The notes under the pieces: generated by a model
Database searches by the model: none
The model's input: the letters and a program-made list of their open reading frames with translations, nothing else
What the model was told of the DNA's origin: nothing
Origin: Spirochaetaceae bacterium
GTDB taxonomy: Bacteria; Spirochaetota; Spirochaetia; Treponematales; Treponemataceae
Assembly (NCBI GenBank): GCA_017614995.1
Contig: JAGAAX010000011.1
Coordinates: 1 to 64,000 of the forward strand
Direction of reading: 5' to 3'
DNA length: 64,000 bases
Position numbers and translations under genes: made by a program
In this document: positions 33,082 to 34,974 of the stretch, in pieces
Layout: each line of letters opens with the position of its first letter
Numbering within the stretch: the stretch's first letter is position 1

Positions 33082-33111
33082 AAAGATTTGCGCTTTTCTG
33101 AAAATCGGGTG

Positions 33112-33236
33112 TATAATCGTTTTATTCGTGCGGAAGGTTTAATACCTCGCCCCTTGGGGCGAAATAAAAGGTATTAAACCTGACTGCAATACCTTTTGAG
33201 AACAACATACCTCGTTGCTTGCGGCGAGGCATGTTG
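33112..33236 (+). promoter_or_regulatory. Possible promoter and two-hairpin leader of the GH5 gene
   Basis: A perfect -10 TATAAT (33112-33117) has only a weak -35 (TTGCGC, 18-bp spacer). Downstream come two strong hairpins. The first is ggtttaatacc/ggtattaaacc (33136-33180) with an inner cgcccc/ggggcg. The second is caacatacctcg/cgaggcatgttg (33203-33236). The leader to the ATG would be about 140 nt. The hairpins could regulate transcription or be repeats; no known riboswitch class is recognised. Confidence 0.5.
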
Positions 33237-33262
33237 ATACAAACAACCTTATAGGAGGAAAT

Positions 33263-34974
33263 ATGAAAGATACTATGTATAGAATGGGGGGGGTAAAAAG
33301 CTTTTTGTAATTATAGCCCTCCTTTTTTTATCAGCTTCAATATTCAGCCAGAGCACAGAACTGCCGTTCAAGAAAGGCATTGACATGCTTACCTTTTTTG
33401 AGTCATGGCAAGCGGGAGACCTTCCGGATCTTAACAAATACGACGAAACTGATTTTGCCATGCTCAAAAGTATGGGCGTGGAGATAATCAGGCTTCCCAT
33501 TCACTTTGCAAATTTAATGGAGCCTGTCAACACCGGCAAAGTTTATGATATAGTTTTTGAAAAACTTGACCAGGTATGCGACTGGGCGGAAAAATATCAG
33601 ATTTATCTTGTTATAGACGACCATTCTTTTAATTCTCAAGAAGAACAAAAAAATCCGCCTAATGCAGAAAGCTATAAAAAGCATTTGCAGGCTGTATGGC
33701 CTCAAATTGCCCAGCGCTATAAAGACCGAAGCGAATACATCATTTATGAAATTGCGAATGAACCAATGGGAAATGGCGATATTCCTGCAAAATGGTATAA
33801 AATTCAGCAGGATATGATTAACCTTATAAGAAAATATGATACAAAGCGCGCAATTGTCGTAACTTCGCCAAATTGGTCAAGTATTGATACGCTTGTAAAA
33901 ATGAAGCCTTATAAAGATTCCAATCTTATCTATACCTTCCATTTTTATGAACCGGGATTATTCTGTACGCAAGGCACGACTTGGAGTGCTGGAACTGATG
34001 TCAAAAATGTTCCGTTTCCTTATGACAAATCTCGTGCTTCAGAAATTCAATATAGCGACAAAAATGAATGGGCAAAATGGGCATTTAGTTCAGAAGGAGA
34101 TTACCAGCGGCAGGGAAATGCCGAATGGGTAAATCAAAGAATTAAGCAGGCGGCTGACTGGGGTAAGAAGAACAAGGTCAGGGTTTGGGCAGGTGAAATG
34201 GGATCGGCTTACTGGATTAACAAAACTGACCGCCTTGCCTGGATTAATGCGGCTGTTGCTGCATTCAAAGCCAATAACATTCCTTATTGTGTATGGGGAA
34301 TTGACGGCGACACAGGCTTTTTAAAAACAGGAACAGGACGATTCCCTGAGGACATTGATAAAGACGCTCTGGAAGCTTATGGATTTAAAATGCCGGACGA
34401 AAGTCTTGTGGCAAAGAAAAAAGCTTCTTATAATGACTTTCCGCAGAAACCGTATATTGTTTTTGACGGCATTTGTGGAAAGGGATCATATATACAGTAT
34501 GGTCGCTGGAAAACAACATCAGTAAAAGATGATGATGTCCACCAATATTGTGAAAAACCATTAGACTTGCAAGATGCTTCTTTAAGAATTTATCTTCCAA
34601 AGCCAATTATCTCTAAAGTTGTAGATAACCGCGACAACCTTGTCTTAAGCTTTTCTGTAAAGTTTACAGACGCAAAGCAGACCTTTAAAGTTCATCTTGC
34701 AGATTCAGACGGCGGAGAGGAACTTCCTCCATGGAGAAACACAGCTTATATAAACGCTTCTGACTATAAGGTTGGAGAATGGGTAACTGTAAAAATTCCC
34801 TTGTCACAGTTAAAAGAAGACTATGCATGGTCAGACAAGGCGCAGAAAAGTTTCAGTCCACAGGGCAAATTTGACTGGAATCGCTTTGCATCCGTTTGTT
34901 TTGATTTCTGGCATGAAAAGAACGACCAAAAAGGCGACATCTACTTCGACGACGTAATGTTCAAGCTGAAATAA
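33263..34974 (+). CDS. Secreted GH5 endoglucanase, frame-shifted at a G8 tract
   Basis: The enzyme domain is open from 33385. Glycoside hydrolase family 5 features: VEIIRLPIHF, YIIYEIANEPMG (acid/base Glu), NLIYTFHFYEPGLF and RVWAGEMGSAYW (nucleophile Glu). A C-terminal jelly-roll domain (about the last 150 residues, ending GDIYFDDVMFKLK) resembles a carbohydrate-binding module. A strong ribosome site (TAGGAGGAAAT) precedes ATG 33263, which reads MKDTMYRMGGVKSFL and stops. Adding one G, or removing two, from the eight-G run at 33286-33293 joins it to a signal peptide (KKLFVIIALLFLSASIFSQS) in frame with the enzyme. So as written the secreted form is off: phase variation or a homopolymer sequencing error. 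Confidence 0.85.

Follow-up and report, generated by a model that had tools for sequence, protein, structure and literature searches.

A G8 tract in a shared leader suggests phase variation of a secreted GH5 glycanase family in a spirochaete

Results

Structure of the locus

The window, by which we mean the whole 64,000 nt stretch of DNA analysed here, is part of contig C49 of a draft assembly (genome of 3.05 Mb, 64 contigs). On its + strand a Shine-Dalgarno sequence, AGGAGG (33253..33258), precedes an ATG at 33263. The frame opened by this ATG reads MKDTMYRMGGVKSFL and ends after 15 codons at TAA 33308-33310, and as assembled this leader ORF (33263..33310) represents the OFF state. A second frame on the same strand is open from directly after TAG 33280 to 34974 (33283..34974, 563 codons plus stop). 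It starts with a putative signal peptide region, (N)GGGKKLFVIIALLFLSASIFSQ, where the predicted peptide GGGKKLFVIIALLFLSASIFS (33286..33348) is similar in the copies on C41 and C43 and in G007:C164, and it encodes KKLFVIIALLFLSASIFSQ... followed by a GH5 domain. Between the Shine-Dalgarno/ATG and the signal peptide, 23 nt downstream of the ATG, lies a run of eight Gs (33286..33293), the proposed switch and the only + strand G run of at least 6 in the window. The length of this homopolymer sets the reading frame of the 5' coding region. An earlier note on this DNA had placed the tract at exactly these coordinates between a strong ribosome site and the signal peptide, with the ATG frame stopping after 15 codons and the GH5 frame out of phase, and our reading of the sequence confirms this; its statement that the gain of one G or the loss of two would connect leader and enzyme frames agrees with the reading frames. 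From TAG 33280 up to 33385 the enzyme frame contains no ATG, GTG or TTG; initiation at 33385 was discarded, as the signal peptide would be lost.

Further upstream we read a promoter-like element with an extended -10, TTGCGC-18-(TG)TATAAT (33088..33117, + strand), which was not reported by a stricter promoter consensus scan. The TGTATAATCGTTTT block with the TATAAT at 33112 is conserved in the paralogue on C41 and in the orthologue G007:C164. As the tract lies inside the coding region and not in the promoter, where Treponema pallidum-type poly-G tracts act, an effect of the window tract on promoter spacing was excluded. The putative 5' untranslated region holds a 113-bp insert with two strong hairpins (33124..33236, + strand), present in the window copy alone of the three; C41 and G007:C164 lack it between TATAATCGTTTT and TACAAACAACC. 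The insert region folds at -60 kcal/mol (z -4.9), and an 80% identical copy lies upstream of another GH5 gene on contig C32 (L001 2692-2806). Judged from sequence and folding, this insert may affect expression.

The encoded enzyme

The GH5 catalytic domain (PF00150, 33442..34302, + strand) was matched with an E-value of 8.5e-38 and 130.8 bits against a cut-off of 23.5. Both catalytic glutamates are in place: Glu160 of the enzyme-frame protein P0001, in an NEP motif (33760..33762), is near-invariant in the alignment of relatives and Glu305, in an AGE motif (34195..34197), is invariant. We take the former to be the acid/base and the latter the nucleophile, as established for GH5. An AlphaFold2 model built from 11 relatives (pLDDT 86.5) matches GH5 barrels such as Thermotoga maritima Cel5A and C. 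thermocellum CelC. The window enzyme has the catalytic fold and glutamates in common with these two, but at only ~21-25% identity and with an additional C-terminal beta-rich domain (34435..34971, + strand), strand-rich in the model. This domain is possibly carbohydrate-binding; a sequence comparison of it with solved structures gave no match below E 0.5. The protein had been described as a GH5 endoglucanase, of which the GH5 assignment stands, while "endoglucanase" comes from the annotation of the nearest, remote solved relatives. The GH5 family is polyspecific.

G runs and leader copies in the genome

The genome holds 18 G runs of at least 8 on both strands, all of which we read in context, against ~0.7 expected by extrapolation from the 6- and 7-G runs. 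Exact run lengths, derived from overlapping-match counts, were 16 runs of 6 Gs, 3 of 7, 10 of 8, 7 of 9 and 1 of 10. Long tracts are thus commoner than chance, and as the distribution is inverted at 8-9 G we conclude that tracts of this length are maintained. Seven runs precede GH5 genes, five lie in lipoprotein genes, one is a G10 in a gene for a secreted protein and five are elsewhere.

The seven GH5 runs all sit in one leader, aggaggaaatATGAAAGATACTATGTATAGAAT-Gn-TAAAA, and leave three genes in frame and four out. We distinguish type A genes, which resemble the window gene, from type B genes, which have ~200 residues ahead of the GH5 domain. The copies in frame (ON) are C16:172824 (G9, type B), C43:10335 (G8, type A) and C47:3078 (G9, type B); those out of frame (OFF) are C41:84306 (G8, type A; abutting a contig edge), C43:20845 (G9, type B), the window copy C49:33286 (G8, type A) and C56:41309 (G8, type B). 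Counted from the ATG, C16, C41, C47 and C49 share the same first 24 nt despite their unlike type A and type B enzymes, and GGAGGAAATATG, covering the Shine-Dalgarno region, is common to five leader copies. Other GH5 genes of the genome, among them those on C9, C27, C37 and C60, have plain starts without a tract. Assuming ~2,700 genes, the 14 GH5 genes have far more of the 18 runs (7) than random placement would give, with the reservation that the leader is shared by descent and the seven copies are not seven independent events.

Leader copies in sister species

Of 274 genomes of the family searched for the leader, only three, each from the genus, carry it with its tract. Four matches in viral contigs were rejected as chance. 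The two sister species (G007, MAG SRR12081303_bin.21; G006, RUG14308; one genome per species was compared) hold five GH5 leader copies, including one with an interrupted tract. The window gene's orthologue, G007:C164 (82% identity), is OFF with G7. A type B GH5 gene in G007 has the leader with G9 and is ON, and a further type B gene of G007 has the interrupted tract CGGGAGGG in frame; from its sequence this copy is locked in frame. Both leader copies of G006 are G9 and ON, even though the leader coding sequence of G006:C262 is one base shorter and that of G006:C179 is in a different frame; both remain in frame through the tract. The 11 uninterrupted copies in the three genomes thus comprise 6 ON and 5 OFF. 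Homologues thus have tracts of G7, G8 or G9, along with one interrupted tract.

In G007, type A and type B genes have one and the same 24-nt leader, and it differs from that of the window species at 4 of 24 nt, which in this small sample suggests that the leader is exchanged among copies within a genome. L110, a leaderless G007 GH5 gene of the same type, has a plain MKKLL start, hence the leader appears to have been added to a signal peptide of the ordinary kind.

Other poly-G loci

A lipoprotein family carries poly-G directly after the lipobox cysteine (...ITSC-Gn), with five runs of at least 8 and one of 7 in this genome (G000 C49:84635, C39:7207, C15:3763, C50:15927, C52:21327 and C60:48833). 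Four G8 copies are in frame, and one G9 and one G7 copy are out of frame, as is a G9 copy in G007. This is an apparent second contingency family, and the same length-dependent frame pattern supports the reading of the GH5 leaders given below.

Several further tracts were observed. The G10 mentioned above (G000:C3:25803-25812, - strand) lies in the signal peptide of a predicted secreted protein and is, as read from the sequence, out of frame. In G004 (C99 and C146; L142, L143) lipoproteins with the leader NTIQLTRGGV are ON with G9, OFF with G8 and ON with G9. In G001, G005 and G006, too, poly-G is preceded by a motif similar to ACTATACAA(A/T)TG. Poly-G also lies beside signalling genes (L135, G005 C7:1218; L012, G000 C9:54272; L138, G005 C125:11568), where a G10 leaves a GGDEF-like protein out of frame and a G9 run precedes the start of an HD_5-domain membrane protein, which has a similar-looking counterpart in G005. 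In G007 (L123, C230:2879) a DNA methyltransferase gene has poly-G just past DPPY; its G10 is out of frame and one G fewer would be in frame, making it a possible phase-variable methyltransferase. Two lipoprotein-gene promoters in G005 (L136, C112:23372; L139, C139:17572) read TTGACA-(10/9 nt)-GGGGGGGGG-TATAAT and have poly-G in a spacer of 19 and 18 nt, respectively, an arrangement like that of T. pallidum tp0126 and Neisseria porA.

Selection on the enzyme frame

Between the window gene and G007:C164 dN/dS was 0.21 over 557 codons from tract to stop, with both genes OFF and both intact; other comparisons gave 0.16-0.27, and for the window gene against relatives the values were 0.16-0.24. The window gene has no internal stop and no other lesion over its 563 codons. 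Since a permanently OFF gene would not be kept in this way, we conclude that the window enzyme is in use, an argument that is independent of the exact tract call in either assembly. A fixed tract with decay elsewhere in the gene, which had been named as an outcome that would speak against phase variation, was not borne out, as there is no decay and tract length varies across related species. The type B gene on C47 (L023), with its tract ON, has a second frameshift mid-gene, ~780 nt after the tract, which may be decay or assembly error.

Discussion

We consider it probable that the GH5 family is subject to slipped-strand translational phase variation through a portable leader cassette. The candidate phase-variable enzyme of the earlier note is thereby supported, because the leader is shared by seven genes in mixed frames, homologues have G7, G8 or G9, the enzyme frame is intact and under purifying selection and the interrupted copy is in frame. 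The cassette would consist of Shine-Dalgarno sequence, 24-nt leader and tract, on seven GH5 genes here and five in the two sister species. Slipped-strand mispairing in replication would add Gs to the tract or remove them. A tract of 9 (or 6) Gs would let ribosomes that start at ATG 33263 read MKDTMYRM-GGG-KK and continue into the signal peptide, giving an exported GH5 enzyme; at the 8 Gs of the assembly they would stop after 15 codons and no enzyme would be exported. The exported GH5 set would then vary from cell to cell. We infer that tract length changes reversibly in a growing population and that the enzyme is exported, active and of benefit. In favour of this, tracts in the same length range vary in vivo in T. 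pallidum, as set out below. The presence of MutS in the genome counts against frequent switching, as does the shortness of tracts with 8-9 G.

It seems unlikely to us that every tract is truly in frame and that the difference between 8 and 9 Gs is a consensus miscall or other assembly or sequencing error. It is a draft assembly and homopolymers are the usual site of error; C41 lies at a contig edge, C47 has its further frameshift, and single 8 versus 9 G calls may indeed be wrong in such assemblies. Error would however have to strike 5 of 11 copies in two assemblies, plus the lipoprotein family, and would leave the upkeep and local concentration of 8-9 G tracts unexplained; further, 15 A/T runs of at least 7 lie inside intact ORFs of the window, though only one of them is 8 long. 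Transcriptional slippage, by which RNA polymerase slips on the G run and an 8-G gene constantly yields some in-frame mRNA without genetic switching, is in our judgement decidedly unlikely. It would account for the purifying selection on OFF copies and can serve either shift direction, but it leaves unexplained why tract length varies from copy to copy and from species to species, and why many leaders are in frame to begin with; such slippage is best documented on A/T runs.

It is very improbable that duplication carried the tract along with the leader and that the OFF copies are decaying pseudogenes. Some copies may be decaying or misassembled, given the second frameshift in C47, and the comparison covered one genome of the species; the window gene on the other hand is without other lesion over its whole length, retains its catalytic glutamates and has the dN/dS of 0.16-0.24 against relatives given above. 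Programmed ribosomal frameshifting at G GGG GGG, which would make the enzyme from the sequence as assembled, deserves hardly any credence. The ATG GGG GGG GTA of the window copy does offer a possible -1 slippery heptamer, yet a -1 shift is needed in the window, C41 and C56, +1 in C43:20845 and G007:C164, and none in the remaining six copies; as the homologues do not share one direction of shift, a single programmed frameshift was rejected.

Returning to phase variation, we speculate, more tentatively and with somewhat less than even confidence, that a portable cassette has come to precede many secreted glycanases and is held uniform inside any one genome, so that each cell would export its own random combination of fibre-degrading enzymes as a form of bet-hedging or division of labour for public-good enzymes. 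This uniformity is suggested by the leader being identical between unlike enzymes and 4 of 24 nt different between species. Clonal fibre degraders would then be mixtures of enzyme producers and non-producers, and would offer a direct test case for bet-hedging and the sharing of secreted enzymes. The cargo here is predicted exported glycanases, several together through one leader, in a relative of rumen spirochaetes. For such tract-bearing enzymes automatic annotation will, depending on the assembled tract length, miss the start and signal peptide or call a pseudogene. To our knowledge, discussions of phase variation nearly always concern surface antigens that face the host.

Comparison with known systems

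The poly-G/poly-C contingency loci of Neisseria, Campylobacter and Helicobacter likewise have a homopolymer close to the 5' end of a gene for a surface or secreted product, which is ON or OFF by reading frame with mixed states in one genome, as here. Their cargoes are mostly adhesins, LPS/capsule enzymes and methyltransferases, whereas here a secreted GH5 family shares one leader cassette. In Gardnerella, tract instability was found at 9-10 bp in colonies and pullulanases are among the tract-associated ORFs (PMC11287997). The tracts reported for P. acnes belong to putative adhesins and not to the secreted GH5 proteins of that species (PMC3224659). Homopolymer tracts in these two organisms are likewise on secreted or surface proteins; unlike here, neither paper describes a tract-bearing leader common to a GH family (PMC11287997, PMC3224659). 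In the open-licence literature we found no simple-repeat phase variation of glycoside hydrolases beyond the Gardnerella pullulanase listing. The mechanism is known; the cargo and the sharing of a cassette appear to be new. Another spirochaete, T. pallidum, has poly-G genes (tprE/G/J, tp0126 and tprL) with G tracts of ~7-11, which vary in vivo between 7 and 11 G and are mostly 9 (PMC7864442). The T. pallidum tracts work in promoters by spacing or length, whereas the window tract, in an enzyme gene of a gut-type relative, would act on the reading frame.
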